Assembly: GCA_016841605.1 (NCBI GenBank)
Contig: JAENYV010000001.1
Span: 62,001 to 126,000, forward strand
DNA from: Dethiobacter alkaliphilus
Lineage (GTDB): Bacteria > Bacillota > Dethiobacteria > DTU022 > UBA8154
Reading direction: 5' to 3'
DNA length: 64,000 nt
This document shows, in pieces, positions 39,438 through 60,123 of the stretch. The notes under the pieces were generated by a model that was not told the DNA's origin, made no database searches, and saw nothing but the letters and a program-made list of their open reading frames with translations. Numbering within the stretch: the stretch's first letter is position 1; each line of letters starts with the position of its first letter. Both the position numbers and the translations under genes were made by a program.

Positions 39438-39469
39438 TATTAAAATAAAAATATGCGGTCACTAAGTTG

Positions 39470-39812: not shown

Positions 39813-39876
39813 CAATTTAAGGGTAAAGGGTAGATACATTAACTCATTCTATATTTTTTTTAGGAGGGATTTGGTT

Positions 39877-39891: not shown

Positions 39892-40063
39892 ATAAAGTTT
39901 TTTAGGCATTAATCATTATAATTTTAATTATCGGAAAAAAGTATGATCTTTAGGCTTTAAAGCAAAATATGATAGGAATTTTCTGAAAATTAATGGGAGG
40001 TGAGGCGTTAAGAGCTAAGCGCAAGTGAAAGTAGTATTTAAAAAATAAAGGAGGTTTATTCAG

Positions 40064-40819: not shown

Positions 40820-40831
40820 GGAGTGAATAAA

Positions 40832-42670: not shown

Positions 42671-42712
42671 GACACAATCTTCAATTAAAAAAATTTTAAG
42701 GAGAAATTATTT

Positions 42713-43513: not shown

Positions 43514-43577
43514 CCAAAAGTTTTTAATAGAATTTAGTTTGGTTACTCGATAGTAAGAAAATGGGTTTATCGAACTT

Positions 43578-43607
43578 GAGGTAGGCCCTTAGAGGGCCTA
43601 CCTCTTT
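43578..43607 (+). terminator. Terminator of the SDR/AOR/MBL operon
   Basis: A perfect 12-bp stem (GAGGTAGGCCCT / AGGGCCTACCTC) with a 3-nt loop, then TTT. A small CCGGAT/ATCCGG hairpin follows at 43615-43629. Confidence 0.85.
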
Positions 43608-43717
43608 AAGCATGCCGGATGAGATCCGGATTCATTATATTAATTCGGTATAGCATGCGGCAAAGCCTTTATTGTTTAATCTTTTTTTTCAAAAAATTTT
43701 TAGGGGGGTAAATAGTT

Positions 43718-44968
43718 TTGAATAACAACAGGTATATGTGGACTGTGTTAATAATCCATTGGTTAGTTTGGGGGATTATTGCATTAGATCGGATGCTGCC
43801 GACTTATGTTGCTCCATATATAATCAATGATCTGCACCTTACTCAGGCTCAATTCGGTATGATTATGTCTACTTTGACGGTAACGTGGGCAGTGATGGGT
43901 ACATTTGGCGGGCACCTATCTGATCGCATCGGGAGGGCTAAGGTGGTATTTCCGTCTATCTTATGGTTTTCAATTACAACAGGTTTCGCTGCCCTGGCGC
44001 GCAGTTTTGGGCAGATGGCGGGGATTTTGGGGCTTGTCGGTCTCGGCCAGGGAAGCTATTGGGGGTCTGGCGTTGCTCATGTAAGTGAAGTATGGCCGGA
44101 AGAGAAAAGGGGATTCGCTCTTGGATTTCATCAGACAGGGTTTCCCATCATCGGAATGTTCATTGGGGGGGCCTTTGCCGGTTATGTAGCTTTAAATTGG
44201 GGATGGCGTGCAGTCTTTCCAATTGCGGCTATAGCTGGAATTGTATTAAGCATTGTGTTTCGTCTTCTGATACGGGAGTCTAAATTATATTTAGACTCCA
44301 AAAACGAAAAAGATTCAGTGACACATGACGAACATAAGGTAAGTTTAAAAGATGCAACAGAACTATTTTCAAATAGAAATTGGTTAATTAACCTGATTAT
44401 CATTGCTTTATCATTGGTTGGCTTCTGGGCGGTAAGTACTTTTATAGTTATTTACTTGACTGAAGTTAAGGGTTTCAGTATTGCTATAGCCGGAGGTATT
44501 GTAGGGATAGTGGGCGCCGGCGGTTTCTTTGGGCAGTTTCTTTCAGCTTGGTATTCAGATCGAATTGGAAGAAGACCCGCTTATCTTGTGGCCACTTTGT
44601 CCGGAGCAATTGGGACTTTGATTCTCATTATGAGCAATTCGGTGCCGATTGTGATTATTGGACTACTAATTACCGGGTATGGAATATATGGCCCAATTGC
44701 TCTAGGGGAAGCAGTATTGCCGGGGGACGTGGTGAAGAAACGTTTAGTGGGAACGTCTGCCGGTATCACAATGCTGGTCGCCGAATTTTTTGGAATTATT
44801 GGGTCAGTCCTTGGTGGCCGTTGTAACGACTATTTTGGCCAAACCGGTTCGCTTTGGTTGGGGGTAATTGCGTTCTCGCTTGCAACTGTAGGTGTGTTAT
44901 TCCTGGGTGAAACTGCGCCAAGGTTCAGTAATAGACAGTCTGATACTGCCGTGGATTTCGTAAAATAA
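43718..44968 (+). CDS. MFS transporter, probable carboxylate/aromatic acid carrier
   Basis: The 416-residue protein has 12 predicted membrane spans, a central cytoplasmic loop (about 190-215), and the MFS signature GGHLSDRIGRAKVV after helix 2, repeated as SDRIGRRPAYL in the second half. Helix 1 contains Asp in ALDRMLP, as in aromatic-acid and sugar-acid proton symporters of the AAHS/ACS type. TTG 43718 follows AGGGGGG. It lies between two catabolic operons, so it is a candidate importer for their substrate. Specificity cannot be read from sequence. Confidence 0.85.
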   Translation: MNNNRYMWTVLIIHWLVWGIIALDRMLPTYVAPYIINDLHLTQAQFGMIMSTLTVTWAVMGTFGGHLSDRIGRAKVVFPSILWFSITTGFAALARSFGQMAGILGLVGLGQGSYWGSGVAHVSEVWPEEKRGFALGFHQTGFPIIGMFIGGAFAGYVALNWGWRAVFPIAAIAGIVLSIVFRLLIRESKLYLDSKNEKDSVTHDEHKVSLKDATELFSNRNWLINLIIIALSLVGFWAVSTFIVIYLTEVKGFSIAIAGGIVGIVGAGGFFGQFLSAWYSDRIGRRPAYLVATLSGAIGTLILIMSNSVPIVIIGLLITGYGIYGPIALGEAVLPGDVVKKRLVGTSAGITMLVAEFFGIIGSVLGGRCNDYFGQTGSLWLGVIAFSLATVGVLFLGETAPRFSNRQSDTAVDFVK

Positions 44969-45041
44969 ACAACCGGACTAATTTCCAGTTGCATAGACGA
45001 TCCTATCCCAATACAGGTCAAAAGAAAAGAGACTAAAACAA

Positions 45042-45092
45042 GCTGGTGTGCAGTGTGGTAAAGGATTTAGGCTATCTACATTGCACACCAGC
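45042..45092. repeat. 14-bp inverted repeat in the MFS-decarboxylase gap
   Basis: GCTGGTGTGCAGTG and CATTGCACACCAGC (13 of 14 pair, 23-nt spacer) lie 73 bp after the MFS stop. It could be a terminator without T-run or an operator. The rest of the 274-bp gap is AT-rich with no ORF. Confidence 0.6.
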
Positions 45093-45242
45093 CGCGATTA
45101 CATATTAAAACCACATCATAAAAAACAATTCAGCCACAGCAAGAAATAAAATTGGAAAAAATTTTACACCAACAAAAGTTCCCTAAATTATAATTTACCT
45201 TCTTCCCATTAAAAAAAAACAATAGAAATGAGGATGAAATAT

Positions 45243-46235
45243 ATGAGCAAATTATCGCTTACTCTTGCTTGCGCACCTTATGACCGGGTACAGGCTTTAA
45301 TTAACGGAACAGTGGCTCCGGAAGGCATTGATCTAAATATTCTGCCGATGGAAGTGGAGGAAGTTTTCTGGCGCCAGTTAAATTATGGGGAGTTTGACGT
45401 CTCGGAATCATCTTTATCCTCATATACGCTGCTTCGCTCGAAAGGGGATAATCGTTTTATCGCTATCCCTGTCTTTCCGTCGAGGTTTTTTCGTCATTCA
45501 TGTATTTTTATCAATACCCGGAAAGAAATTAAGAGGCCGGAAGACTTGAAAGGCAAAATTGTTGGAGTGCCCGAATACCAGATGACCGCGCCCCTATGGC
45601 AAAGGGGCATCATGGCTGATGAATACGGAGTGCATCCCCGGGATATGAGCTGGCGCAGTGGTGGACAGGAAGAACCCGGTAGGGTTGACAAAGTTGCTAT
45701 GAATCTTCCGTCAGACGTACACCTCGAGCAGATTCCGGCTGATAAAACACTATCCCAAATGCTTGACAATGGTGAGATAGATGCACTTTTTAGTGCTCGT
45801 ACACCTTCCTGCTTCCTGAAAGGGTCACCGAACGTGGCGCGCCTTTTCCCTAATTTCCGTGAAGTAGAAGGGGACTATTTTCAGCGTACGGGTATCTTTC
45901 CGATCATGCACATCGTCATTATCAGACGAGATCTTTACGAAGCAAACCGTTGGGTTGCCATGAGCCTGTATAAAGCATTTTGTCAGGCTAAAAATATTAT
46001 TATGGAAAACTTTAACATTACTTCGGCCCTTTATACCACCCTTCCCTGGATGACCGATGAGGTGGAGCGTACCAGAGGGGCTCTTGGCAATGACTTTTGG
46101 CCATACGGAATCGGGCCAAATCGGAAAACACTGGATGCTTTTTTCCGCTATCATCATAATCAGGGTCTTTCAAGCAAAATGATGAGCATTGAGGAGCTTT
46201 TCGCACCGGAAACCATGAGCGAGTTTAAAATTTAG
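45243..46235 (+). CDS. 4,5-dihydroxyphthalate decarboxylase-like protein
   Basis: The 330-residue protein resembles 4,5-dihydroxyphthalate decarboxylase: LSLTLACAPYDRVQAL, VAPEGIDLNIL, FDVSESSLSSYTLLRS and FIAIPVFPSRFFRHSCIFIN. The fold is that of periplasmic binding proteins, and automatic annotation may call it an ABC solute-binding protein, but there is no signal peptide or lipobox and no ABC genes, so an intracellular enzyme is more likely. ATG 45243 has GAGGA 8 bp upstream. It probably removes CO2 from a hydroxylated aromatic or related dicarboxylate. Confidence 0.75.
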   Translation: MSKLSLTLACAPYDRVQALINGTVAPEGIDLNILPMEVEEVFWRQLNYGEFDVSESSLSSYTLLRSKGDNRFIAIPVFPSRFFRHSCIFINTRKEIKRPEDLKGKIVGVPEYQMTAPLWQRGIMADEYGVHPRDMSWRSGGQEEPGRVDKVAMNLPSDVHLEQIPADKTLSQMLDNGEIDALFSARTPSCFLKGSPNVARLFPNFREVEGDYFQRTGIFPIMHIVIIRRDLYEANRWVAMSLYKAFCQAKNIIMENFNITSALYTTLPWMTDEVERTRGALGNDFWPYGIGPNRKTLDAFFRYHHNQGLSSKMMSIEELFAPETMSEFKI

Positions 46236-46294
46236 AACACTGATAAAGGAAGGGGCGGACGACTTATGAGAGAGCCTAAAAAGCGTTAGGCGGA

Positions 46295-47233
46295 TTACTT
46301 TTGCATAATACGAGATCTTATTTCGAAGTACTCCATAGTAAAATCCAGGAAAGCATGGCTCAGGGGTGGCAGAACTCTCTTTTTCCGGTAAATAAGGTAA
46401 AAATTTCTCTTTAGCATCAGTTCTTCCAGGCTGTATCCTTCTATCGAACCGATACGGAGCTCTTCTTCTACTGCTTTGCGGGATATTACCGTAAGCCCCA
46501 TCCCGGCTTTAACGGCTTCTTTAATAGCTTCCTGGCCTTCCAGATAAGCTACCACACGAAGATCGGGAGTACTTCCGAACCTTTTTTGCAGGGCTTTTTC
46601 AAAAACAAGGCGTGTAGCAGATCCCGGTTCTCGCAGGACAAAGGGATAGCTAAGGCAGGCCTCCAGCTTGACGGGAGGTAGCCCGGATTTTGTAGGGGCT
46701 TCTTTGGAAAGATTTGTGTCCGGTGGAGCGATGAGGATGAGCTGGTCTTCAACCAGCTTTACCTGTCCCAACCCTTCGCTGGTAACAGGCTTTCCGGCAA
46801 AGCCCAGGTCATAGGTATAGTCTCGGATGCTTTCAAAAACGTGCCGCGTATCCCGCAGCAGGACGGAGAAAGTAACACCGGGATACTTACGGCTGAAAGA
46901 GTGAAGTAGACCCGGCAAAAGGTACGCACCTGGAACGCTGCTCGCGGCGATCTCCAGGTGCCCCTTAACAATACGATAGTTTTCCTGAATGGCGGAAAGA
47001 GCTTCTTCCTTAATTTCCAGGATTTCCTGGGCAAACTTAAAGAGAATCTTGCCCCCTTCGGTCAGCATTAGTTCTCGCTGGCTTCGATCAAAAAGAGACG
47101 TTCCAATCTCGTTCTCCAGGGCTTTAATATGAGCGCTAACTGTGGGCTGACTTAGAAAGATATTTTCAGCCGCACGTGAAAAATTTTTTTGTTTGGCTAC
47201 TTCTACAAAAACCTTGAGCTGGTGGAAATCCAT
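46295..47233 (-). CDS. LysR-family regulator
   Basis: The 312-residue regulator has the N-terminal winged HTH (FSRAAENIFLSQPTVSAHIKALE) and a substrate-binding domain. The start resembles the branch annotated as selenium-metabolism-associated LysR or CysL-like, but I am not certain. It is divergent from the nitroreductase gene across 350 bp that contain inverted repeats, and convergent with the decarboxylase-like gene. The likely targets are itself and the nitroreductase. Confidence 0.85.
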   Translation of the reverse strand: MDFHQLKVFVEVAKQKNFSRAAENIFLSQPTVSAHIKALENEIGTSLFDRSQRELMLTEGGKILFKFAQEILEIKEEALSAIQENYRIVKGHLEIAASSVPGAYLLPGLLHSFSRKYPGVTFSVLLRDTRHVFESIRDYTYDLGFAGKPVTSEGLGQVKLVEDQLILIAPPDTNLSKEAPTKSGLPPVKLEACLSYPFVLREPGSATRLVFEKALQKRFGSTPDLRVVAYLEGQEAIKEAVKAGMGLTVISRKAVEEELRIGSIEGYSLEELMLKRNFYLIYRKKRVLPPLSHAFLDFTMEYFEIRSRIMQK

Positions 47234-47584: not shown

Positions 47585-48136
47585 ATGGAAACAAGGGAAT
47601 GTATAAAAAACAGAAGAAGCATAAGAAATTTTACCAACCAAGAAATTTCTGAGGAAATTTTGCGGGAATTATTGGAGGCAGTCCGCTGGTCTCCCTCATG
47701 GGCCAACACACAGTGTTGGGAACTGATCGTGGTTAGGGAACAAGCAAATAAAGAAAAACTGGCTGAATTGCTGGCGGAAAGAAATCCCGGAACCAAAGCA
47801 GTTGTACAGGCACCGCTTGTCCTGGTTTTTTGCGGTAAAAAGGGAGTGTCGGGTTACAAAAAAGGAGTTTCTTTGACTAATAAGGGTGACTGGTTTATGT
47901 TTGATGTGGGTGTTGCCTGTCAGAATTTCTGCTTAGCTGCCCATGATCTTGGACTTGGTACAGTGCAAATCGGAAATTATGACCATCAGAGTGTGGATAA
48001 ATTTTTAAACTTAGCCGGGGATGTTGAATCAGTTGCAATTATTCCTATCGGTTATCCTGCCAAGGAGAGCATAGCTCCTTCAAGAAAGGAAATTGAGAAT
48101 TTTGTTTTTCTGGAAAGTTACGGGAAAAAATGTTAA
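47585..48136 (+). CDS. Nitroreductase-family flavoprotein
   Basis: The 183-residue FMN protein has CIKNRRSIRNFTNQEIS at the start and AVRWSPSWANTQCWE, the FMN-phosphate contact, then GLGTVQIGNYD near the end. It could reduce nitro, quinone or conjugated double bonds with NAD(P)H. GGGGG precedes ATG 47585. A piece of a second, decayed copy with its terminator occurs at 59305-59470. The gene lies between a LysR gene and a sigma-54 activator gene, so it belongs to the catabolic island by position. Confidence 0.85.
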   Translation: METRECIKNRRSIRNFTNQEISEEILRELLEAVRWSPSWANTQCWELIVVREQANKEKLAELLAERNPGTKAVVQAPLVLVFCGKKGVSGYKKGVSLTNKGDWFMFDVGVACQNFCLAAHDLGLGTVQIGNYDHQSVDKFLNLAGDVESVAIIPIGYPAKESIAPSRKEIENFVFLESYGKKC

Positions 48137-48160
48137 TGGACTGATCAGGTAAAATCGTGC

Positions 48161-48198
48161 AATTCAGTGGGAGATTTTCGCTCTCCCACTGAATTTTT
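48161..48198 (+). terminator. Terminator of the nitroreductase gene
   Basis: AATTCAGTGGGAG / CTCCCACTGAATT with a 9-nt loop, then TTT. A modified copy occurs at 59427-59469. Confidence 0.85.
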
Positions 48199-48349
48199 AC
48201 AAGAAGGTATTTGTTCGTCTATAGAGAAATTTATAAATATTCGTTCATATAATTATAAGCGAAATAGAAAAAGGCAACTTTAGTTTCCAGATTATTTTAA
48301 AAGTTTCCAGTTGATTTGCATTAAAAAGAAAGGAGAAAGAAAATAAAAT

Positions 48350-50086
48350 ATGAAATTTCCTGAAATTTTAAACGTTTTAATAGAGTCGGTTCATAATGGT
48401 ATTCTTGCCATTAATACAGAAGGAATTGTCACTGTCTGCAATAAGGCGGCAAGAATGATGATGGGCATAGATAAAAGTATTGAAGGGCAGCCCGTTGAGT
48501 CGATTATTTCCAATACACAGCTTTTAAATGTTTTAAAAACAGGAGAGCCCCAATATGCAGAAAAATTTATTTACAGAAACAAGACTTTTTTATCAAATAG
48601 AACACCTATTATCTTAAATAATCAAATTGTCGGTGCAGTAGCTGTTTTTCAGGATATTACAGATATTGAGAAGATATCTTTAGAATTATCAACATTACAA
48701 TATTTGAACCGGGAATTAAATACGATTATTGACTCTATTGATGATGGAGTTCTCGTCATTGATGAAAAGGGGAAAATAGTCCGGGTAAATAAATCATTCG
48801 AAAGGGTAACCGGACTAAATCATCAAGAATACAGTAACAGTTCTTTGCAATCTTTATACGAGAAAGGATTATTATTATATACTCCCATAGCATCTGCTGC
48901 GTTAGAAAAAAAAGAGGTCATTACCAATTTGCAGATTATCAGTACGGGAAAAGAGTTAATCATAACAGCCATTCCGGTAACTGATGAATATGGAAAAATA
49001 AATAAAGTTGTTACAACAGCAAGGGATATAACAGATTTAAATAAATTAAAACAAGAACTTGAACAATCGCAAAAACTGTCTGAGCTATACCGTGCTCAAA
49101 TAAATCAACTTTCAAAGAAACGTTTTATTAAAGATAACAAAATAGTTACCCGCAATACGAAAATGTTGGATATTTTGGAGTTGTCTCATCGAATAGCACA
49201 AACGGAGACAACAGTTCTTATTTTAGGTGAATCCGGAGTCGGTAAAGAATTGATCGCTGAAAATATACACAATTGGAGTGACAGAGCCAAAAAAGGTCCT
49301 CTAGTTGAAGTTAACTGCAGCGCTATTCCTAAAGAATTATTAGAATCGGAGTTTTTTGGTTATGAATCAGGTTCTTTCACAGGAGCAAAAAAGGATGGTA
49401 AACCTGGTCTTTTTGAGATAGCAAGTGAAGGTAGTATTTTTCTTGATGAAATTGGTGATCTTCCCTTAGAGATGCAGGCAAAACTTTTACGTGTTCTTGA
49501 AACAAAACAGTTTTTACGTTTGGGAGGGCTAAAGCCCAAAACAATTAATACCCGTTTTATTGCAGCGACAAACCAGGATCTTGAAGATAAAGTTAAAAAT
49601 GGATTATTTCGCGAAGACTTATTTTACCGGTTAAATGTTGTTCCGATAGTAGTCCCTCCGCTTCGAGAAAGACAGGATGATATTCCCATTTTGTTGGCCT
49701 TTTTCCTTAATAGATTTAATCAAAAGTACAGATATTCAAAAAGTTTTAAATCCGAAGTAGTTTCTTTCTTACAGAAATATCATTGGCCGGGCAATGTCCG
49801 GGAGTTAAAGAATATCATCGAAAGACTGGTTCTTATTAGCAATCAGAATGTTATTCTCAAAGAAGATATCCCTGAGAATATTTTAAAAAGTATAGAATCA
49901 AATGAAATCAAGAAAAAAACATATAGCTTAAGCGGTCAATATCTAAAAGAACTTAAAGAGGAACTGGAAATAATTATTCTCAAAGAAGCAATGAATGAAT
50001 TTACCTCTATGAGAAAAATTGCCGAAGAACTGGGTTTATCTCATACGGCAATTATTAAGAAAATGCGCAAGTACAAACTATCTTAG
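48350..50086 (+). CDS. Sigma-54-dependent activator (PAS-PAS-AAA-Fis)
   Basis: The 578-residue enhancer-binding protein has two PAS domains (about 8-115 and 125-235), a short helical linker, the AAA+ domain (about 262-490; GESGVGKE, GSFTGAKKDG, DEIGDLP) and a Fis-type HTH (about 545-578). The two PAS domains may sense a ligand or redox state. It lies 280 bp upstream of a -24/-12 promoter, so I infer it activates the molybdenum hydroxylase/TRAP operon. A fragment of its PAS coding sequence is repeated at 59494-59555. AAGGAGAAAG precedes ATG 48350. Confidence 0.9.
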   Translation: MKFPEILNVLIESVHNGILAINTEGIVTVCNKAARMMMGIDKSIEGQPVESIISNTQLLNVLKTGEPQYAEKFIYRNKTFLSNRTPIILNNQIVGAVAVFQDITDIEKISLELSTLQYLNRELNTIIDSIDDGVLVIDEKGKIVRVNKSFERVTGLNHQEYSNSSLQSLYEKGLLLYTPIASAALEKKEVITNLQIISTGKELIITAIPVTDEYGKINKVVTTARDITDLNKLKQELEQSQKLSELYRAQINQLSKKRFIKDNKIVTRNTKMLDILELSHRIAQTETTVLILGESGVGKELIAENIHNWSDRAKKGPLVEVNCSAIPKELLESEFFGYESGSFTGAKKDGKPGLFEIASEGSIFLDEIGDLPLEMQAKLLRVLETKQFLRLGGLKPKTINTRFIAATNQDLEDKVKNGLFREDLFYRLNVVPIVVPPLRERQDDIPILLAFFLNRFNQKYRYSKSFKSEVVSFLQKYHWPGNVRELKNIIERLVLISNQNVILKEDIPENILKSIESNEIKKKTYSLSGQYLKELKEELEIIILKEAMNEFTSMRKIAEELGLSHTAIIKKMRKYKLS

Positions 50087-50112
50087 TATATACGTCACCT
50101 CTTCGTATATAC
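50086..50112 (+). terminator. Hairpin at the end of the second activator gene
   Basis: GTATATACG / CGTATATAC with a 9-nt loop overlaps the last base of the stop codon. The stem is AT-rich and no long T-run follows. Confidence 0.45.
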
Positions 50113-50368
50113 ATCCCCTATTTTAATTATTTGATTTATAATTGGAAACTTTTTATTCCAATTTTTTTTATTATTACTAAGATTGACTCATTCTTTCCTT
50201 CCTTCCGGTGAGTGCTCGGGACGCTTGGAGTGCTCAGACAAAGAGCCCGATCGGTGCTCTCCGTTTCCTGCCTGCAAGTCCTGCGGTTCTCCTTAGCCCT
50301 TTGATTACCTATCCGGTAAAGCAATGTTATATCTTGTTGTTATTGCCTTATTTCTTTGTATATTCTGA
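50113..50368. other. Upstream region of the molybdenum hydroxylase operon
   Basis: No gene is seen. An AT-rich part is followed by a GC-rich patch (50205-50290) in which TGCTC occurs three times at 50213, 50231 and 50254, twice as GAGTGCTC. These are candidate activator sites 115-155 bp ahead of the sigma-54 promoter. Confidence 0.4.
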
Positions 50369-50385
50369 GTTGGCATATATATTGC
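50369..50385 (+). promoter_or_regulatory. Sigma-54 promoter of the molybdenum hydroxylase/TRAP operon
   Basis: TTGGCATATATATTGCA: GG and GC are separated by 10 bp, as at 39796. Transcription should start near 50397. Confidence 0.82.
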
Positions 50386-50442
50386 ACTAATAGTTAATAT
50401 CAAAATATTTTGGTGGCTGATCATTTTTGGAGGTGTTATTGA

Positions 50443-50484
50443 ATGAAGGTTACACAAAACTACTGTATGGGAGTGAGGCTATGA
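50443..50484 (+). CDS. 13-residue leader peptide ORF
   Basis: GGAGG at 50429-50433 is 9 bp from ATG 50443, a better match than any site for the large gene itself. The ORF encodes MKVTQNYCMGVRL and its TGA overlaps the ATG of the hydroxylase gene (ATGA). It probably couples translation of the large subunit or acts as a sensor leader. Alternatively the large gene starts at TTG 50427 or 50439 in another frame. Confidence 0.45.
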   Translation: MKVTQNYCMGVRL

Positions 50485-52775
50485 ACCGGGAGTTTTCAGT
50501 TATCGGCAAAGCAATACCGCGGGTTGATGCCCTTGCTAAAGTAACAGGGAGAGCGCTCTATGCCGCAGATCTTTCCATGCCGGGTATGCTTTACGGAAAG
50601 ATATTGCGCAGTCCTTACTCCCACGCCAAGATTCTTAATATAGACACCGGCCAGGCCGAAAAGTTGCCGGGGGTGCGGGCGGTAGTTACAGGGAAGGACT
50701 TTCCCGGCATCAAGTACGGACTGATGCCGGAGACAAGGGATCAATTACCCTTCCCGATTGACAAGGTGCGGCATTACGGTGAAGGGGTAGCGGCTGTAGC
50801 TGCAGTAGATCCCGAGATCGCGGAAGAGGCCCTCTCGCTTATCAGGGTAGAATACGAGGAACTGCCTCCTGTGCTTGATCCTGTTGAGGCCATGAATGAA
50901 GGCAGTCCGCTTGTTCACGAGCACGCACCCCGGAACATAGCTTTTAGCTGTAATTATCATTTTGGCGACGTGGATGCGGCTTTCAAGGAGGCTGACTACA
51001 TTCGTGAAGAAACCTTTACCACCCAAAGGGTGAACATCGGGTTCATCGAGCCGCATGCAGTATTGGCCTCGGTGGACGGTGACGGGCGCATTACCCTTAA
51101 GGCCTCAAAACAAAGTCCCTATGTCACGTGGAGGCATATGGCAAGAGCGTTAGGGGTGTCTCCTAACGATATTCACATAATTCAAGACCACTATGTCGGC
51201 GGAGCCTTCTCAGGCAAGCATGACCCGTTTGATCTGGATTTTGCTGCCGTGCGAATGGCGCAAAAAACCGGGCGTCCGGTGAAGATCGTCCTCTCTCAGG
51301 ATGAAGTATTGACCGCGTACCGCCAGCGTCACAGCAAGATAGTCAAGATGAAAATCGGCGTAAAACGTGACGGCACCTTGTTGGCCTGTGACACCACACT
51401 AATATCCGAGGGCGGTGCGTATGCATGTGTATCCCCGTTTAACACATATATATTCGCAGCTTTCTTGACAACCACATATCGCTTGCCCAATGTCAAGTTT
51501 ACGGGTTATCGGCCGTACACTACCAAGCAACCGTGTGGGGCTGTTCGGGGGCAGGCTATTCCCATAGCGCGGTATGCGTTTGACTCTCTCCTTGACATAG
51601 TGGCCGAGGATCTTGGGCTGGACAAATGGGAAGTTAGACGCAAGAATGCTCTGCGAGCGGGAGAGACAACAGCGAATAAGATGTACCTGACTACCTGTGG
51701 GCTGGAAGAATGTCTCGACAAACTGGCGGACGCACTTAACTGGGAAGAGCGTAAGAAAAAGAAGATACCCTACCGCGGCATTGGCTTCAGCTGCGGGTCG
51801 CACCCTTCCGGTGTGCGCTTGGGAGGGCATTTCGGTTCTACGGCATTAGTTAAGATAATGGAAGACGGAACGGTTACTTTAATCCACGGTTCCACAGAAA
51901 TAGGGCAGGGTGTAGACACGGTTATGGCGCAAATTGCTGCCGAACCGCTTGGCCTGGAGACCAAAGATGTCCGTGTTGCACCGGAGGATAGCGATTCTAC
52001 TGCTCTGGATTCGGGGATGTTCGGGGACCGCTGTACACTTTGGACCGGCAATGCTGTCCTGGCGGCTGCCCGGGATGCGCGGCAACAACTGGCGGAGGTT
52101 GCAGCAGAGATTCTTGGTGCCGGTCCGGACAGTCTTGTTTTCCGCAATCATAAAATTTATCCGGATGGCCGTCCCGAGAACGCGGTCCCTTTTCTCCAGG
52201 TAGTTCGCAAAGCAATCTACGAGAAAGGGGAGACCATTTACGGTCGGGGGACATGGTCTGCCCCGGGGGTTGAAATGGTAAACATGAAGACCGGCGAAGG
52301 AAACTTATCACCGGCCCTCTCTTTCATTGCTCAGGCCGCAGAGGTGGAAGTTGATCCGGAAACCGGGCATGTCAAGGTTTTAAAGTTCATCGCTTGTGAT
52401 GACGCCGGCCAGCCCATAAATAAACTCACGTTGGATGGGCAAGTGGAGGGTGCCGCAGTGTTCACGATGGGGCAGGCGCTATATGAGGATGTGAAATACG
52501 ACGCGGCCGGCCGGCCGGTCAATGCCTCCTTGAGAGACTATAAGATGCCCACTGTGATGGATGTGCCGGAGATAGAAATCCACCATATCATTACTGATGA
52601 ACCTTCAGGCCCGTTTGGTGCCAAGGGCGCCGGGGAAGCCAGTACAGCCGGAACACTTGCCGCTGTTGCCAATGCAGTGTTCGATGCTTTGGGTGTCCGC
52701 ATAAAGGACTTGCCCATAGCCCCGGAGAAAGTCGTTGAAGCGTTGCGGGTGAAGAAGGAAGAAGGAAGCCGGTAA
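50481..52775 (+). CDS. Molybdenum hydroxylase large subunit (xanthine dehydrogenase family)
   Basis: The 764-residue molybdopterin-binding subunit starts MNREFSVIGKAIPRVDALAKVTG. Mo-site motifs are GGAFSGKHDPF, CGAVRGQAIP, GSTEIGQGVD and GPFGAKGAGEAS, whose Glu is the catalytic base. The enzyme should hydroxylate an aromatic or N-heterocyclic carbon with water, or act on a thioester-linked aromatic. ATG 50481 has GGGAG 7 bp upstream and starts on the leader ORF's stop. The gene is clearly more GC-rich than the small and FAD subunit genes, which lie downstream of an unusual AMP-ligase insertion. Confidence 0.9.
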   Translation: MNREFSVIGKAIPRVDALAKVTGRALYAADLSMPGMLYGKILRSPYSHAKILNIDTGQAEKLPGVRAVVTGKDFPGIKYGLMPETRDQLPFPIDKVRHYGEGVAAVAAVDPEIAEEALSLIRVEYEELPPVLDPVEAMNEGSPLVHEHAPRNIAFSCNYHFGDVDAAFKEADYIREETFTTQRVNIGFIEPHAVLASVDGDGRITLKASKQSPYVTWRHMARALGVSPNDIHIIQDHYVGGAFSGKHDPFDLDFAAVRMAQKTGRPVKIVLSQDEVLTAYRQRHSKIVKMKIGVKRDGTLLACDTTLISEGGAYACVSPFNTYIFAAFLTTTYRLPNVKFTGYRPYTTKQPCGAVRGQAIPIARYAFDSLLDIVAEDLGLDKWEVRRKNALRAGETTANKMYLTTCGLEECLDKLADALNWEERKKKKIPYRGIGFSCGSHPSGVRLGGHFGSTALVKIMEDGTVTLIHGSTEIGQGVDTVMAQIAAEPLGLETKDVRVAPEDSDSTALDSGMFGDRCTLWTGNAVLAAARDARQQLAEVAAEILGAGPDSLVFRNHKIYPDGRPENAVPFLQVVRKAIYEKGETIYGRGTWSAPGVEMVNMKTGEGNLSPALSFIAQAAEVEVDPETGHVKVLKFIACDDAGQPINKLTLDGQVEGAAVFTMGQALYEDVKYDAAGRPVNASLRDYKMPTVMDVPEIEIHHIITDEPSGPFGAKGAGEASTAGTLAAVANAVFDALGVRIKDLPIAPEKVVEALRVKKEEGSR

Positions 52776-52810
52776 TACTTAATGAACGGAAGTTCAGCAA
52801 AAAATCAAAA

Positions 52811-52858
52811 TGAGCACCAACCGAATTGGAAGTTCTCTTCCAATTCGGCCGCTGCTCA
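52811..52858 (+). other. Intercistronic stem-loop between the large subunit and ligase genes
   Basis: CCGAATTGGAAG-TTCT-CTTCCAATTCGG is a perfect 12-bp stem, extended by TGAGCA/TGCTCA after a 4-nt internal loop. No T-run follows and the ligase RBS is 9 bp downstream, so RNA stabilisation or processing seems likelier than termination. Confidence 0.6.
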
Positions 52859-52881
52859 TAGTTTATAAGGAGGATGAGACA

Positions 52882-54558
52882 ATGTTGCCTGGTTGTTCCG
52901 ACTGGCCGATGGAGTTTGAAAAGCGCTATGTGTCCAGGGGTTATTGGGAAGGCCTTACTATTGGCGATATACTTGATCGTAGTGCCTGGGCTTTTCCGGA
53001 AAGGGAGGCCCTTGTTGGTGTGTCGCCGGTGTGGGGGGAAACGCGCGATACTTACGCCGTGCTGCAGATGAAAGTAAACAGATTGGCCATTCACCTGTTG
53101 CGGATAGGTGTTACGCCGCTGGATCGGGTCATTATGCAGTTCCCCAATATTCCCGAGTTTTTTTATCTTTATTTCGCCTTGCACAAGATAGGCGCTATTC
53201 CTGTCATGTGCTTGCCGGCCCACAGGTATGCGGAGGTAAGCTACCTTTGCAGCCAGGTAGGAGCGCGCGGCTACGGCGTGCCTTCGACGCTCAGGGGTTT
53301 TAACTACCTTGAACTAGCGAAAGAGATGAGAGACACAGGCGGGATAGAATATGTGCTGGTAGCAGGCAGAGAGGCACTGCCGGGAATGGTGCTTTTAAAT
53401 GAACTGCTTGAAGATCCAATCGAGGAGAGGTATCCGGATGATTATCTTACAGCCTGGCGGCCGGATCCGAACGAAGTAGCCGTGTTTCAACTGTCCGGTG
53501 GGACGACAGGGATACCCAAGCTGATTCCGCGGACCCATAACGGGTACCTTTGTTGCTCCAAGTATAGCGCCATGCTGGCCGGTTTCACGCCCTATACTGT
53601 TTTTCTCGCCACGACGCCCGTTGCTCATAACTTTACTATAACTTCACCGGGTATCCACGCGGCGGTCTTCTTCGGGGCGAAGTCTGTCCTGGCCCTTTCG
53701 CCCAACCCGGATACCGTCTTTGCTTTAATCGAAAAAGAGCGGGTGACTTACGCCAATGCGGTGCCGGCTGTAATTATTAGCTGGTTGAACTATGATAAGC
53801 TTTCGAAATACGATATAAGCTCGCTTGAGGTCATCATTAGCGGCGGTTCGAAATTCAATCCGGAAATTGCCCATTTGGTGCCGGAAAGATTGGATTGCAA
53901 GCTTCAGCAGACGTTGGGGATGGCCGAAGGGCTTAACGTTTATACGCGATTGGATGACTCCGGAAAAATTATTTTCGAAACTGTCGGGCGGCCATTGCTT
54001 CCGGACGACGAAATCAAGATAGTCGACGAGGAAGGAAAGGATGTACCCCCGGGAGAGATTGGCGAGCTTTGGACTCGGGGACCGTACACCATTCGTGGTT
54101 ATTATCAGGCGGAGGAACAAAATCGGGAAGCTTTTACGCCGGACGGTTTTTATAAATCCGGCGATCTGGTTCGCCTGGTTGATGGTAACCTGGTTGTGGA
54201 AGGGCGCAGGAAAGATGTTGTTAATAGGGGAGGTGAGAAAATTAGTGCCGAGGAGATCGAAAACCTGATCCTGAGCCATCCGAAAGTAATAAATACTGCA
54301 GTTGTCAGCATGCCCGACCCCATTTTAGGGGAGAGAATCTGTGCATATGTAATTTTGCAGCCTGGAACAAAAATAACACTTGATGAACTAAGGGACTTTC
54401 TTCTTAGTAAACAAATTGCCAAGTTTAAGCTGCCTGAGAGGGTAGAGATAGTTGACTCATTTGTCTTGACACCTGTTGGTAAGGTCTCCAAAAAAGATTT
54501 GCGGGTTGACATTGCGGAAAAACTGGCGAGAGAAAATCAATCAGCCAAGGGTGCCTGA
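52882..54558 (+). CDS. Aryl-acid AMP ligase (2,3-dihydroxybenzoate-AMP ligase-like)
   Basis: The 558-residue adenylate-forming enzyme is closest in style to DhbE/EntE. It has the P-loop-like LSGGTTGIPKLIPRTHNGY, the adenylation motifs GMAEGLNVYTR and YKSGDLV, and the C-terminal Lys in VGKVSKKDLR. No aryl carrier protein or NRPS gene is near, so it probably makes an aryl-CoA. ATG 52882 has AAGGAGG 8 bp upstream; the frame runs further up to 52810 through the hairpin. It splits the hydroxylase subunit genes, suggesting that hydroxylation and activation share one substrate. Confidence 0.87.
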   Translation: MLPGCSDWPMEFEKRYVSRGYWEGLTIGDILDRSAWAFPEREALVGVSPVWGETRDTYAVLQMKVNRLAIHLLRIGVTPLDRVIMQFPNIPEFFYLYFALHKIGAIPVMCLPAHRYAEVSYLCSQVGARGYGVPSTLRGFNYLELAKEMRDTGGIEYVLVAGREALPGMVLLNELLEDPIEERYPDDYLTAWRPDPNEVAVFQLSGGTTGIPKLIPRTHNGYLCCSKYSAMLAGFTPYTVFLATTPVAHNFTITSPGIHAAVFFGAKSVLALSPNPDTVFALIEKERVTYANAVPAVIISWLNYDKLSKYDISSLEVIISGGSKFNPEIAHLVPERLDCKLQQTLGMAEGLNVYTRLDDSGKIIFETVGRPLLPDDEIKIVDEEGKDVPPGEIGELWTRGPYTIRGYYQAEEQNREAFTPDGFYKSGDLVRLVDGNLVVEGRRKDVVNRGGEKISAEEIENLILSHPKVINTAVVSMPDPILGERICAYVILQPGTKITLDELRDFLLSKQIAKFKLPERVEIVDSFVLTPVGKVSKKDLRVDIAEKLARENQSAKGA

Positions 54559-54646
54559 AAGCAAATTTGTTGATCCGGATGATGCAACTTTTGGGAATTT
54601 ATTCAACTGGGAGCAAAATCTTCAAGCAAAATCTTCAAGTAAATAA
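54551..54646 (+). other. Possible 31-codon ORF with tandem 13-mer
   Basis: GTG 54551 opens an ORF across the ligase stop (starts PESKFVDPDDATFG). It contains GCAAAATCTTCAA twice in tandem (54612-54637). It has only AAGG adjoining the GTG, so translation is doubtful; it could be the remains of a longer tail or gene. Confidence 0.3.
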
Positions 54647-54673
54647 TATACATTTTCTGGGGGGCAGATGCAA

Positions 54674-55141
54674 ATGGGAGAGCGGATTTTCTGTAAGATA
54701 AATAATGTAGATTACGATGTAGTAGTAAATCATAACGAGACTTTACTACATTTGTTAAGAAATAAATTAGGTTTAACCGGTACTAATGAAGGTTGCGGCA
54801 GCGGAGATTGTGGAGCCTGTACAGTTATCGTTAACGGAAAGGCAGTAAATTCATGTTTGTATTTAGCTGTGGATATAGACGGTAAGGAAGTTTTAACAAT
54901 AGAAGGGCTGGCTGACGGAGAGAAACTGCACCCGCTTCAAGAAGCCTTTATCGAAGAAGGAGCAGTGCAATGCGGTTTTTGCACGCCCGGTGTTTTAATG
55001 TCCGCAAAAGCTCTTTTAGATGAAAAATCTCATCCTTCTGAAGAAGAAATACGAAAAGGAATTGCCGGTCATTTATGCCGATGCACAGGGTATATAAAAA
55101 TTGTGAAAGGGATTTCATCTGCAGCCGAAAAAATAAAATAA
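54674..55141 (+). CDS. Molybdenum hydroxylase 2Fe-2S subunit
   Basis: The 155-residue small subunit has the ferredoxin-type cluster motif CGSGDCGACTV with a later Cys (SCLYLA), and the second cluster motif CGFCTPG with CRCTGY. It passes electrons from the Mo site to FAD. ATG 54674 has GGGGGG 9 bp upstream; ATG 54668 is too close. It lies downstream of the ligase and is AT-richer than the large subunit gene. Confidence 0.93.
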   Translation: MGERIFCKINNVDYDVVVNHNETLLHLLRNKLGLTGTNEGCGSGDCGACTVIVNGKAVNSCLYLAVDIDGKEVLTIEGLADGEKLHPLQEAFIEEGAVQCGFCTPGVLMSAKALLDEKSHPSEEEIRKGIAGHLCRCTGYIKIVKGISSAAEKIK

Positions 55142-55174
55142 CAGAAAAATAAGAAGCCATGAAAGGAGATAAAA

Positions 55175-56062
55175 GTGTTTAAGCCTTTTGAGTATTTACG
55201 ACCTAAAAGTATAACGGAAGCAGTTGAGTTGGGTGTAACTTATGGTTCAGAGGCACAATATATGGCCGGAGGGACGGATGTCTTAGTAAATTTAAAGAAT
55301 AAACCGCAAAAAGCTCTTAAGTTCATAATAACACTTCGTTATGTAAATGATCAACTGAATTATATCAAATTAGAAGATAGGTATTTAAAAATAGGTGCCT
55401 TGACTACGCACAGAGACCTTGAAAAATCCGCTTTGATTCAAAGGGAGTATCAGGTTCTCCATGACGCTGTTTCACAGGTGGGTTCGGTTCAGATAAGAAA
55501 TGTGGCTACCATCGGAGGCAATATTTGCAGTTCATTGCCGTCGGCTGATACAGCTTCACCATTGTTGGTTTTGGGTGCTCAATTAAAAATTATGGGGCAA
55601 GACGGAGAAAAAGTGGTCGCATTGGAAGATTTTTATCTGGGGCATGCGCAAAATATTTTAAATAAAGGAGATATTTTAACGGAAATAATTATTCCCCCAA
55701 AAAAATCATATGCCGCCGGTAAATATTATAAGCTTGGCAGACGAGGGGCCATGGAGCTTCCTCTGGTGGGTGCCGCTGTTTACCTTGTTATGGATAAAAA
55801 TCTTGATTTATGTCTTGATGCGAGAGTCGCCTTAACAACTGCTGCCCCTGTTCCTTTACCGGCTAAAAAGGCCGCGCAAGAATTGGTCGGAAAGCCTATA
55901 TCTCCCGATAATTTAACAAAGGCAGGAAAAATAGCTGTTCAAGAAGCTTCACCGAGAACTAGTTTGCGGACGACAGCCGCATACAGAAGGGAAGTTCTTC
56001 CTGTTCTCGTGCGAAGGGCCGGATTAGAGGCATACGAGAGAATAAAACAAAACCGGAACTGA
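55175..56062 (+). CDS. Molybdenum hydroxylase FAD subunit
   Basis: The 295-residue subunit has the FAD loops MAGGTDVLV and IGGNICSSLPSADTA. It lacks the Cys-rich 4Fe-4S insertion found in 4-hydroxybenzoyl-CoA reductase beta subunits, so this enzyme is not of that type and more likely hydroxylates its substrate. GTG 55175 has GAAAGGAG upstream. The end of the operon's enzyme part is marked by a hairpin at 56131. Confidence 0.9.
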   Translation: MFKPFEYLRPKSITEAVELGVTYGSEAQYMAGGTDVLVNLKNKPQKALKFIITLRYVNDQLNYIKLEDRYLKIGALTTHRDLEKSALIQREYQVLHDAVSQVGSVQIRNVATIGGNICSSLPSADTASPLLVLGAQLKIMGQDGEKVVALEDFYLGHAQNILNKGDILTEIIIPPKKSYAAGKYYKLGRRGAMELPLVGAAVYLVMDKNLDLCLDARVALTTAAPVPLPAKKAAQELVGKPISPDNLTKAGKIAVQEASPRTSLRTTAAYRREVLPVLVRRAGLEAYERIKQNRN

Positions 56063-56130
56063 ATATACGACAAAAGTCCTGTCTGAAATCTCTATCGATG
56101 CCTTCGCTAGACACGCATCTTCTGTGAGTA

Positions 56131-56158
56131 TGTGGGCAACACCAAAGGGTTGCCCACA
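56131..56158 (+). other. Stem-loop between hydroxylase and TRAP genes
   Basis: TGTGGGCAAC / GTTGCCCACA (10 bp, loop 8 nt) without T-run, 70 bp after the FAD gene. It may protect or process the mRNA, or act as a partial terminator ahead of dctP. Confidence 0.55.
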
Positions 56159-56251
56159 AGCCCGCTGCTGTAAAGATTTCTTATCGGCAAAATTGTAAAA
56201 ATAATTAGAAACTTATTAATTTATTACAAATAACGAGGAGGTAAAACAAAA

Positions 56252-57358
56252 ATGAATATATTGGGTTATCAAGCACGGTGGATTACTATTTTGTTATTAA
56301 TAGTGTTAATGGGAGGAATAGTTCTTTTCGGAGGGTGTGCCGGGACAACCGGCTCGCCCGCAGAGGAAACCGGCGAACCGCAGGAAACCATTGAGTTAAG
56401 CTTTGCCCATTTTTTTCCGGCAACTGATATGATTGAGACAGATATGGTCCAGCTTTGGATTCGTAAAGTGGAGGAAGCTACGGATAATCGGCTCAAAATA
56501 ACCAGCTATCCCGGACAGGTTCTTGTCCCATCTGCCGAAACCTATCAGAGTGTTGTTGAGGGTGTCGTTGATATCGGCCTTTCATGTCACGGATATACGA
56601 GGGGAAAGTTTCCCATCATAGAAACATTTTTGCTTCCCGGGATAGCTTCTGTTAATGCAAAAGCAGCAAGTTATGCTCTCATGGAAGCCATCAATACCTT
56701 GAATCCTTTGGAGATACAAAATACAAAGCATTTATGGAGCTGGGGGAACGCCCCGGGCGGTATGATGATGCAAAGTCCGGTCAGAAAGCTGGAAGATTTA
56801 CAGGGTGTTGAAATCGGCGTTACAGCCGGGCCGCGTGCCGAAGCGTTTAAACTGCTTGGAGCAGTGCCTGTAACCTTAGCTATGCCGGAATGGTACGAGG
56901 CACTTTCAAGAGGAGTTATGACGGGGGGAATAGCAGGGCTGGATACAATGAAGACCTTTAAACTTGGTGAGGTTACAGGTGATTATATCACAATAGCTCC
57001 CTTTATGTTTAATCAAACCTTCTTTGTCGTCATGAACCAGGAAACCTGGAATTCATTGCCGGGAGATATTCAGGATATTATCACGCAAGTTACAGATGAA
57101 TTTTTCCATGAATGTGTTACGGATTTCTGGTTTGAGTATGCAGATCAGGGCTTGGAATATACGCGTAATTTGAAAAATGTTGAGATTATCGAGCTGCCGG
57201 ATGAGGAAATTCAAAGATGGTTAGAAAAAATGCAACCAATTATGGATCAACACATTGCTTATTTAAATGAAAGGGATTTGCCGGGAGAAGAAATTGTTAA
57301 GACAATTCTTGAAATTGTTGAAGATAATAATCAAAAGTATGGCGATATTCAACAATAA
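56252..57358 (+). CDS. dctP: TRAP transporter solute-binding protein DctP
   Basis: The 368-residue extracytoplasmic solute-binding protein has a signal peptide with a lipobox-like FGGCAG (Cys near residue 29) and a Glu/Pro/Gly linker. DctP features include LSFAHFFPATD, then WIRKVEEATDN, and the carboxylate-binding Arg region in VEIGVTAGPRAEAFKLLG. It should deliver an organic acid to DctQM. GAGGAGG precedes ATG 56252. It is separated from dctQ by a 15-bp hairpin, typical where the binding protein is made in excess. Confidence 0.92.
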   Translation: MNILGYQARWITILLLIVLMGGIVLFGGCAGTTGSPAEETGEPQETIELSFAHFFPATDMIETDMVQLWIRKVEEATDNRLKITSYPGQVLVPSAETYQSVVEGVVDIGLSCHGYTRGKFPIIETFLLPGIASVNAKAASYALMEAINTLNPLEIQNTKHLWSWGNAPGGMMMQSPVRKLEDLQGVEIGVTAGPRAEAFKLLGAVPVTLAMPEWYEALSRGVMTGGIAGLDTMKTFKLGEVTGDYITIAPFMFNQTFFVVMNQETWNSLPGDIQDIITQVTDEFFHECVTDFWFEYADQGLEYTRNLKNVEIIELPDEEIQRWLEKMQPIMDQHIAYLNERDLPGEEIVKTILEIVEDNNQKYGDIQQ

Positions 57359-57417
57359 GGTTTAAACCTATTTTATTCTTTTGTCAGGAAATCGGCAGCA
57401 GTAACCTCTAGTTAATA

Positions 57418-57468
57418 GTTAAGTCAGGGCAAATAATATTTTTAAACGTTATCTTGCCCTGACTTAAC
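57418..57468 (+). other. Intercistronic stem-loop between dctP and dctQ
   Basis: GTTAAGTCAGGGCAA / TTGCCCTGACTTAAC, 15 perfect pairs with a 21-nt AT-rich loop. It would protect the dctP message or reduce transcription into dctQM. Confidence 0.65.
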
Positions 57469-57479
57469 GAAAGGACTTC

Positions 57480-57986
57480 TTGAAAAAGAAAATGGAAAGG
57501 GTGAGCAGATTGGGAAAATTTAATGTTATGATAAGCAACCTTCTTAATGCAATTTCCCAATTTTTTTTAGCACTAATCATGGTCCTGGTGGTGAGTAATG
57601 TGCTAATGAGGCTTTTAGGAAGACCAATTATGGGGTCTTATGAATTTGTCGGATACCTGGCAACAATGGTAACAAGTCTGGCTTTAGGCTACTGTGCGAT
57701 TCAAGGAGGGCATATTGCTATTGATTTTTTCTTTAACAGGTTGCATTTGGGATTTCGGAAGGTTATGGATATTATTGTCAGTATATTCATATCACTATTT
57801 TTGCTGTTGATTCTATATAGAACCGCACTTTACGCCAATCAATTACGCATAAGCGGAGAAGTTTCCCTGACAACAGGTATTCCTTATTATCCGGTCGGAT
57901 TTACGGTAGTGCTCGGGTTTCTCATCTACTTTCTCGTATCGCTGGGTCCTGTCCTGGAGTCTTTGAAAAAGGTGGTTCAAAAATGA
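57480..57986 (+). CDS. dctQ: TRAP transporter small membrane subunit DctQ
   Basis: The 168-residue protein has four membrane spans and the family motif MRLLGRPIMGSYEFVGYLA. TTG 57480 is close to AAGGA; TTG 57510, with AAAGGG 8 bp upstream, is an equally good start. It overlaps dctM by 4 bp. It links the binding protein to the large channel subunit. Confidence 0.88.
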   Translation: MKKKMERVSRLGKFNVMISNLLNAISQFFLALIMVLVVSNVLMRLLGRPIMGSYEFVGYLATMVTSLALGYCAIQGGHIAIDFFFNRLHLGFRKVMDIIVSIFISLFLLLILYRTALYANQLRISGEVSLTTGIPYYPVGFTVVLGFLIYFLVSLGPVLESLKKVVQK

Positions 57987-59299
57987 GTCCATTGTACATT
58001 GGAATAATCGGCATAATATTGTTTTTGTTCCTGGTGTTTTTTAAAGTACCTATTGCCCTATCGATGAGTTTGGTAGGTTTTTTGGGCTATGGTTATATAG
58101 TTTCATTAGGAGCTGCCTCAAGGTTGCTGGCATCCGAAATATTTTCATCCTTTTCTTCTTATTCTTTGAGTGTTATCCCCATGTTTGTTTTAATGGGTTT
58201 TTTAGCGTATTATGCGGGAATCGGCAACAAACTTTTTTCTTTTGCTTATAAAATAATAGGCCGCTTACCCGGTGGTCTGGCAATGGCAAGTCAAGTCGCC
58301 TGTACAATTTTTGGAGCAATATGCGGTTCCGCTACAGCTACAGCAGCTACTATCGGTTCTGTTGCGATCCCTGAAATGAAAAAGTATGATTATGATTCTT
58401 CCCTCTCCGCGGGGTGTATTGCTGCCGGTGGAGCGATAGGAGTAATGATTCCACCAAGTATTATTTTTATTCTTTATGGTGTTGCGACAGAACAATCCAT
58501 TGCAAAATTGTTTTTAGCCGGGATACTGCCGGGAATTCTCTTAATGTGTTTATACATAATCGCCATATGGGTCGTTTGTACTAAAAATCCGAATTTAGGT
58601 CCCACGGCAACAGGCCCTCGTTTAAGCTTAAGAGAAAAGATTAGGCCCCTCAAGGGGGTTTTGCTGCAAGTTTTTGCCGTATTTTGTCTTTCCCTGGGAG
58701 GTCTTTTTGCCGGCTGGTTTACCCCAACGGAAGCCGGGGGTGTTGGGGCAGCAGGAGTCCTTGTTGTCACAGTTATTGATGGTAGTATGAGCTGGAAAAA
58801 ATTTGTAAGCGCATTAAAAGATACAACATCCATGGTGGCAATGATTATGTTTTTAGTGGCAGGTGCAACAATTTTCGGCCGTTTTATGACTATAAGCCGT
58901 ATTCCGGAGGCAATTGCCCAATGGATTTCGGCTCTCCCTTTGCCGCCCTTTTTTGTAATGGTCATTGTGCTCTTAATATATGTGGCATTGGGAATGTTTA
59001 TTGAAGCCATTCCCTTAATTCTGTTAAGTGTGCCAATTTTCTTCCCTTTGGTTGTTAATGTCTTAGGATATGATCCGATCTGGTTCGGAGTAATAATTGT
59101 CATGGTTGGAGCATTAGGCATCATTACACCTCCAGTGGGGATTAATGTTTATGTTGTGAGTACTATTGCCAGAGAGATACCAATTGATAAAATATTTCGT
59201 GGTATTGTCCCTTTTTTAATTGCAGCTATAATCTGTTGTATACTCTTGATCCTTTTCCCGTGGATAGCTACATTATTGCCATATTATGTTATCGGCTAA
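57983..59299 (+). CDS. dctM: TRAP transporter large membrane subunit DctM
   Basis: The 438-residue protein has about 12 membrane spans with the Na+-site segments FGAICGSATATAATIGSVAIP and GGAIGVMIPPSIIFILYG, and IEAIPLILLSVPIFFPLV. ATG 57983 overlaps the dctQ stop. It carries out Na+-coupled uptake of an acid captured by DctP. It is the last gene of the island; six bases after its stop the decayed repeat copy begins. Confidence 0.92.
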   Translation: MSPLYIGIIGIILFLFLVFFKVPIALSMSLVGFLGYGYIVSLGAASRLLASEIFSSFSSYSLSVIPMFVLMGFLAYYAGIGNKLFSFAYKIIGRLPGGLAMASQVACTIFGAICGSATATAATIGSVAIPEMKKYDYDSSLSAGCIAAGGAIGVMIPPSIIFILYGVATEQSIAKLFLAGILPGILLMCLYIIAIWVVCTKNPNLGPTATGPRLSLREKIRPLKGVLLQVFAVFCLSLGGLFAGWFTPTEAGGVGAAGVLVVTVIDGSMSWKKFVSALKDTTSMVAMIMFLVAGATIFGRFMTISRIPEAIAQWISALPLPPFFVMVIVLLIYVALGMFIEAIPLILLSVPIFFPLVVNVLGYDPIWFGVIIVMVGALGIITPPVGINVYVVSTIAREIPIDKIFRGIVPFLIAAIICCILLILFPWIATLLPYYVIG

Positions 59300-59304
59300 C
59301 AAGT

Positions 59305-59555
59305 ATTGCCTGTCGGAATTTCTGTTTAGCTGCCCATAATCTTGGACTTGGTACAGTGCAAATAGGAAATTATGACCGTCAGAGTGTGAAAGTTACTAAA
59401 AAAATGTTAATGGACTGATCAGGTAAAGCCGTGCAATTCAGTGGGAGTGCCCCACTGAATTGCACGGCTAACGCAAAAACATTGAAAACTTGTTTTCAAA
59501 TAAAATTCTTATTATCTTAAATAATCAGATTGTCGGAGCAGTAGCTATTTTTCAG
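59305..59555 (+). pseudogene. Decayed copy of nitroreductase 3' end plus sigma-54 activator fragment
   Basis: Three blocks match the 47.9-48.65 kb region in the same order and strand. 59305-59389 matches nitroreductase codons at 47912-47996 with about six mismatches in 85. 59388-59445 matches its 3' end and terminator arm at 48113-48170. 59494-59555 matches the PAS coding sequence of the second activator at 48591-48652, with three mismatches in the last 45. The intervening parts are deleted. A short in-frame piece (CRNFCLAAHNLGLGTVQ) survives but has no start. Confidence 0.85.
59427..59469. repeat. 19-bp perfect hairpin in the decayed copy
   Basis: The left arm 59427-59445 and right arm 59451-59469 pair over 19 bp around AGTGC. 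In the parental terminator (48161-48195) only 13 bp pair. No T-run follows. Confidence 0.8.
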
Positions 59556-60123
59556 CAGGGGAAGACCAACCCCAGCCAATAAAATGTTTTCCGTCCCAAT
59601 TCTTTTGGCGGCCGAGTGATAATTGGAATAATTCGGTTTGCCAATAGCTTGATACGGAAGAAAAGCCTCCTTCCTCCTGTTCCTCTTCCTCAAATGCTCC
59701 CAGCCTTTCTGTATAAAAATCCTGCAAATATTTATACAGTTCCCCGGCCGTATCTTCATCCTCAGTAGATATAACAAAATAAAAACTATAAAGCATATTT
59801 TGGTCAAAATTAAATTCCAATTCTGCGCGGTGGCCCAGTACTTCTATTTCTACTACGGCTTCCCTAAGCCCGCTCTCCCCCAGGCTCTCAAGATCGCCTT
59901 CCGGATGGAGCGGCCCCATTCCGGGAAACTGCTCTTTTACGTCCTGGTATGTTAAACCAAAGGATAAATCATCGCCGAGGAGCAGTAACTCCTCTTCAGC
60001 GTTTTGTTGCGCAGTTTCTTCCGGTTCTCCTTCTTCCCCCTGAGCCTCGGTTCCGTTATTTATACAACCAAAGAGGAAAACACTTAGCGATAAAATAAGG
60101 GCAAATAAGAATGTTTTTTTCAT
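59545..60123 (-). CDS. Small lipoprotein, unrecognised
   Basis: The 192-residue protein has a lipoprotein signal (MKKTFLFALILSLSVFLFGC, lipid Cys20), an acidic Glu-rich linker to about residue 50, and a compact domain containing DLSFGLTYQDVKEQFPG and YKYLQDFYTERLGA. I do not recognise the domain; the Tyr/Phe-rich pattern suggests an alpha/beta fold exposed outside the membrane. Its 3' end overlaps the decayed repeat by 11 bp. The next upstream gene on the strand is hydrogenase hndD, 102 bp away, so cotranscription is possible. Confidence 0.75.
   Translation of the reverse strand: MKKTFLFALILSLSVFLFGCINNGTEAQGEEGEPEETAQQNAEEELLLLGDDLSFGLTYQDVKEQFPGMGPLHPEGDLESLGESGLREAVVEIEVLGHRAELEFNFDQNMLYSFYFVISTEDEDTAGELYKYLQDFYTERLGAFEEEEQEEGGFSSVSSYWQTELFQLSLGRQKNWDGKHFIGWGWSSPAEK

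Follow-up and report, generated by a model that had tools for sequence, protein, structure and literature searches.

Directly behind the dctM gene in a 64,000-nucleotide stretch of Dethiobacter alkaliphilus DNA (hereafter the window, whose coordinates are used throughout), we found a shrunken direct copy, 59303–59555, of the segment at 47910–48652. Between the two copies lies a catabolic gene cluster that we call unit 2. We consider it probable (roughly 0.6) that unit 2, together with the adjoining 3′ part of a nitroreductase-family gene (NR), long ago underwent a tandem duplication of which this remnant is the decayed end. An operon-sized catabolic unit was thus probably once duplicated in this lineage, and the locus illustrates how such duplications are erased. 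The remnant itself is a dead fragment and not a working element; it is an ordinary leftover of an old duplication and reveals no new mechanism.

Structure of the remnant

A blastn search with 59001–60000 as the query and the window as the subject returned three collinear plus/plus blocks (Table 1). Block 2 runs from NR codon 177 to the stop codon and includes the 5′ arm of the NR terminator hairpin; in a chained alignment the 3′ arm was also partly kept (48182–48195 = 59448–59461). The remnant lacks 117 bp inside NR and approximately 396 bp between the terminator and the PAS-coding sequence. Similarity was far above chance, as the chained alignment of the two stretches scored 278, compared with a maximum of 29 in 200 shuffles and 34 in 200 other segments of the window. 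These results confirmed an earlier note on this DNA, which had described three matching blocks behind dctM, ordered and on one strand, that carry terminator and sigma-54 activator PAS sequence and are cut by internal deletions from about 740 bp to about 250 bp. Its phrase 'nitroreductase 3′ codons' named the correct gene but was slightly loose, because block 1 derives from the middle-to-3′ part of NR. When translated, the block 1 reading frame in the remnant had no start codon and was closed by a TGA at approximately 59416.

Table 1. Features at and around the remnant, in window coordinates; the nfnAB-like copies lie to the right of the window
Feature	Position	Strand	Remarks
LysR regulator	46295–47233	-	NR neighbour here; in congener G002 on the same contig as NR, ~6.5 kb from it; 81% DNA identity
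Nitroreductase-family gene (NR)	47585–48136	+	PF00881; 80% aa identity in G002, 74% in G001
Left (source) copy	47910–48652	+	NR 3′ part, terminator, start of sigma-54 activator
PAS-sigma-54 activator (PrdR-like)	48350–50086	+	Opens unit 2; congeners have no close relative
Molybdenum hydroxylase, large subunit	50427–52775	+	Closest to the 4-hydroxybenzoyl-CoA reductase alpha model; below cut-off
AMP-forming aryl-acid ligase	52810–54558	+	2,3-dihydroxybenzoyl-adenylate-synthase-like, below cut-off
Molybdenum hydroxylase, 2Fe-2S subunit	54668–55141	+	
Molybdenum hydroxylase, FAD subunit	55175–56062	+	
TRAP transporter DctP-DctQ-DctM	56252–59299	+	dctM stop 3 bp before remnant
Remnant block 1	59303–59388	+	= 47910–47995, NR codons 109–137; 80/86, 93%, E 7e-32
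Remnant block 2	59388–59461	+	Copy of 48113–48195: end of the NR coding sequence with stop codon, terminator region; loop shortened
Block 2 core match	59388–59447	+	= 48113–48173; 56/61, 92% over 61 bp, E 3e-18
Inverted repeat	59427–59469	.	Perfect 19-bp arms, exactly reverse-complementary; 5-nt loop
Remnant block 3	59485–59555	+	= 48581–48652, PAS-coding, sigma-54 activator; 62/72, 86%, E 1e-17
Putative lipoprotein gene	59545–60123	-	Stop codon 59545–59547, inside remnant block 3
nfnAB-like copy 1	68220–70500		G000:C30:130220-132500 (L037)
nfnAB-like copy 2	74913–77193		G000:C30:136913-139193 (L037)

No further copy of the blocks was detected elsewhere in the organism's own genome (4.07 Mb), and within 33.5–60.5 kb they were the sole direct repeats, marginal low-identity families aside. 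A dispersed copy or a REP/MITE-like family of the hairpin was rejected, since there are two genome sites only. Tandem-repeat arrays were absent from the remnant site, as were Rfam elements from 30–64 kb of the window. An assembly artefact is unlikely because the copies differ by approximately 9% and the right copy has deletions of its own. The remnant was present in none of 40 relatives, the one match (in congener G002) being to the intact NR.

Hairpin within the remnant

The perfect inverted repeat in the remnant folds as RNA with an energy of −40.6 kcal/mol (z −8.1). Its stem is longer at the base than that of the homologous left terminator, which is without pairing there. A role as a terminator is doubtful because no T-run follows the hairpin on the plus strand; the terminator scan did not list it. 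We therefore regard it as very improbable that the remnant is a selected functional element, such as one that terminates the convergent transcripts of dctM and the lipoprotein gene. Such a role would suit so stable a hairpin between convergent genes, but in addition to the missing T-run and the scan result, the flanking NR and PAS pieces are decaying and have no part in termination, so the hairpin would at best have been put to secondary use.

Template switching leaves traces such as perfect inverted repeats (PMC8794818), and if it had occurred at the deletion joint, the perfect stem would be accounted for; a change in the left copy is just as conceivable. The 19-nt arms, exactly complementary where the left terminator is unpaired at the stem base, resemble the products of quasipalindrome correction or template-switch mutation (PMC8794818, PMC7202029). 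Unlike those cases, the direction of change here is not polarised, because no outgroup carries the hairpin, and it may be the left copy that lost pairing.

Polarity of decay

The left copy is most likely the original and in its old place, because the LysR–NR linkage is common to G002 and because each of the four amino-acid differences of block 1 is derived in the right copy. Block 1 contains six left/right differences. Four of the four nonsynonymous differences were derived on the right when compared with congeners G002 and G001 (the first, at 47912, was polarised by G001 alone, as G002 has a third base), one synonymous change (47932) was derived on the left, and one difference was not polarisable. 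Because derived changes occur on each side, enough time has passed since the copies separated for drift in both of them. The left–right dS of approximately 0.1, compared with approximately 2 for NR between this genome and G002 (rough values from few sites), indicates that the copies split much more recently than the species. Relative to the outgroups, relaxed constraint is visible in one copy, in the derived changes on the right and in the closed NR frame, and the right copy thus drifts without constraint. The earlier statement that the right copy is the decayed one therefore agrees with the polarisation of block 1.

Unit 2 and the resident nitroreductase

Unit 2 probably forms an operon for aromatic-acid degradation. 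The earlier note had placed molybdenum hydroxylase, ligase and TRAP genes between the copies; we recovered these, along with the FeS and FAD subunit genes and the full DctPQM set. The NCBIfam equivalog cut-offs for 4-hydroxybenzoyl-CoA reductase were missed by all three subunits (alpha 735.6 vs 994.6 bits, gamma 164 vs 257.8, beta 119.7 vs 404.6). A three-subunit molybdenum hydroxylase is nevertheless encoded beside an aryl-acid AMP ligase, an arrangement in keeping with a candidate 4-hydroxybenzoyl-CoA reductase. The FAD subunit (295 aa) scored best as XdhB-type, and the 4-hydroxybenzoyl-CoA reductase beta model matched it weakly.

A search of 71 genomes from the order turned up no syntenic counterpart of unit 2. 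Relatives of the activator and hydroxylase in the order and in a 398-genome sample of the phylum were approximately 40–47% identical overall: the best activator relatives in the sample reached 45–47%, and the best hydroxylase relatives within the order approximately 42–43%. No other genome in the 398-genome set gave a hydroxylase match at E 1e-215. Where the activator matched in genome contigs, unit 2 was not alongside. Among the matches listed, the best plasmid relative of the hydroxylase was approximately 38% identical, and the terminator pattern had no match in viral contigs.

NR is a resident gene of the genus and not part of unit 2, which begins at the sigma-54 activator. Congeners G001 and G002 both have NR, with no activator beside it and no unit 2; the boundary of the unit was corrected to exclude NR. 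In G002, convergent nfnAB-like genes follow NR within approximately 120 bp, and here the nfnAB orthologues are found approximately 20 kb from NR, at 68.2 kb in window coordinates, and have the same shared terminator. We do not read the interval from NR to nfnAB as a single clean 20-kb insertion, since its lipoprotein and hydrogenase genes are located elsewhere in G002; the region has thus undergone more than one rearrangement. In G001, the [FeFe] hydrogenase orthologue (G001:C59:17599-19392, L083) has two TGA codons and one TAA codon in frame, and is either a pseudogene or affected by sequencing errors.

Origin of the remnant

Both edges of the remnant are abrupt and look like illegitimate joints. 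On the left, the dctM stop codon is followed after 3 bp by the middle of NR; on the right, the remnant runs into the 3′ end of the lipoprotein gene, which is encoded on the opposite strand and whose product ends in ...WGWSSPAEK here and in ...WGWE in the G002 homologue (G002 L036 8812-9909). A head-to-tail duplication joins the end of the duplicated segment to its start, and a joint from dctM to mid-NR is what a duplication of approximately 47910–59300 is expected to give; the left edge thus supports one. The fusion to the lipoprotein gene end is in keeping with a deletion that extended beyond the copy. The activator already stood behind NR at the time of copying, since the NR–activator junction is part of the copy.

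The sequence of events would then have been as follows. Unit 2 (regulator, hydroxylase, ligase and TRAP genes) would have arrived behind the resident NR by some route, and the stretch from mid-NR (approximately 47910) to just past dctM would have been duplicated head to tail by illegitimate recombination. Illegitimate deletions would then have removed the second copy except for approximately 250 bp, its junction with the right flank included, leaving a spliced NR–terminator–PAS pseudogene fragment joined to the 3′ end of the lipoprotein gene. One of the internal deletions may have coincided with copying of the left arm of the hairpin, which would yield the perfect stem. Most likely the duplication once spanned the whole unit, and the events took place in this order and by this mechanism. 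A separate illegitimate deletion is needed because ordinary RecA-dependent loss of the second copy would leave no remnant; with the original right flank gone, microhomology at the junction can no longer be read. Against a duplication, no trace of a second hydroxylase, ligase or TRAP gene was found near the remnant, and a complete tandem copy was seen in no further strain.

The main rival, which we think possible but distinctly less likely, is that a second unit never existed and that a short templated patch, only approximately 0.25–0.74 kb of the NR–regulator stretch, was copied to the dctM flank by template switching or as filler DNA in break repair, perhaps as three pieces from the outset. 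This would account for the fact that nothing of the remainder of a second unit survives, that the search with the whole unit hit nothing else in the genome but paralogues at approximately 65–73%, and that both outer ends are abrupt; the inverted repeat, as a trace typical of template switching (PMC8794818), points the same way. No further sequence of the duplicated segment was found to the right of 59555, an absence that is compatible with a deletion as well as with a patch. A patch, however, requires either the copying of a 0.74-kb template or three ordered switches, in the same orientation, into one nearby template, whereas bacteria more commonly take the route of tandem duplication with subsequent deletion.

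Tandem duplications that arise spontaneously in horizontally acquired genes have been documented (PMC11111574), as have frequent genome-wide spontaneous duplications and deletions (PMC3411829). The favoured duplication resembles such duplication–amplification and deletion of gene clusters (PMC11111574, PMC3411829) in its head-to-tail order, its span of approximately 11.4 kb and the later loss of most of the copy. It differs in that a degraded 250-bp end alone remains, with no amplified state or copy-number change observed.

That a duplicated NR–regulator stretch brackets unit 2, as the earlier note had stated, is clear from the blastn blocks. Its further proposal, that the unit arrived or was duplicated by homologous recombination between NR–regulator repeats, was not supported by our data. 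A single repeat pair exists and its outer ends are abrupt, so the repeats look like the product of a duplication and not its substrate. Arrival via pre-existing NR–activator repeats is disfavoured because the congeners lack the activator: instead of an empty site with NR beside the regulator, G001 and G002 have NR only. Neither a donor nor a tandem NR–regulator–hydroxylase array was found among the genomes searched, related genomes included. A Campbell-type event, in which circular or related-strain DNA carrying NR, regulator and unit recombined with a resident NR–regulator pair and left direct repeats, would fit a unit that is absent from relatives and flanked by direct repeats. We judge it improbable: the right copy holds the NR–regulator junction, which demands that the regulator was resident beforehand, yet NR in the congeners has no regulator beside it and the NR–regulator stretch is not repeated elsewhere in the genome. 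The arrangement also recalls genomic islands with attachment-site direct repeats, in that direct repeats enclose a block that the relatives lack. Unlike in such islands, no integrase was recognised among the annotated end genes, and the repeats are pieces of protein genes, 86–93% alike and with internal deletions.

Possible loss of unit 2 and neighbouring loci

The two copies are exactly identical over at most 29 bp in a row, at the NR terminator (48125–48153/59399–59427), a length near the lower limit for RecA-dependent recombination. A crossover within it could delete 11,274 bp, which is the whole of unit 2, and leave NR intact. Loss or amplification of unit 2 through the repeats is possible in this way, and was seen in no genome examined. 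That unit 2 was until recently an active tandem array, with a copy number that aided the establishment of a newly acquired aromatic-degradation pathway, and with the 29-bp identity still permitting precise loss of 11.27 kb, strikes us as quite improbable.

Upstream lies a second block of approximately 11.1 kb (35206–46316; unit 1: sigma-54 activator, SDR, AFOR, MFS and others) that is absent in G002, where a clean empty site has the flanks 144 bp apart; no strong direct repeat was found at the ends of unit 1. The activators of units 1 and 2 (38733–39063 and 49355–49685) share 66% DNA identity, only in the conserved AAA+ stretch, and neither unit is a recent copy of the other.

To the right of the window, the nfnAB-like genes (glutamate-synthase-like/NADH-dependent ferredoxin:NADP) are doubled in direct order, with 99.96% identity over 2281 bp and a GGDEF-EAL gene and a chemotaxis-receptor gene between the copies. 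This pair, 9 kb further right, is either a very recent duplication or a gene conversion, and shows that direct duplication does happen in the region. Further right (87424–93278 on the window scale), short repeats recur every 66 bp or so over a long stretch downstream of a Cas3-like gene (L037:15141-17465), which probably represents a long CRISPR array.
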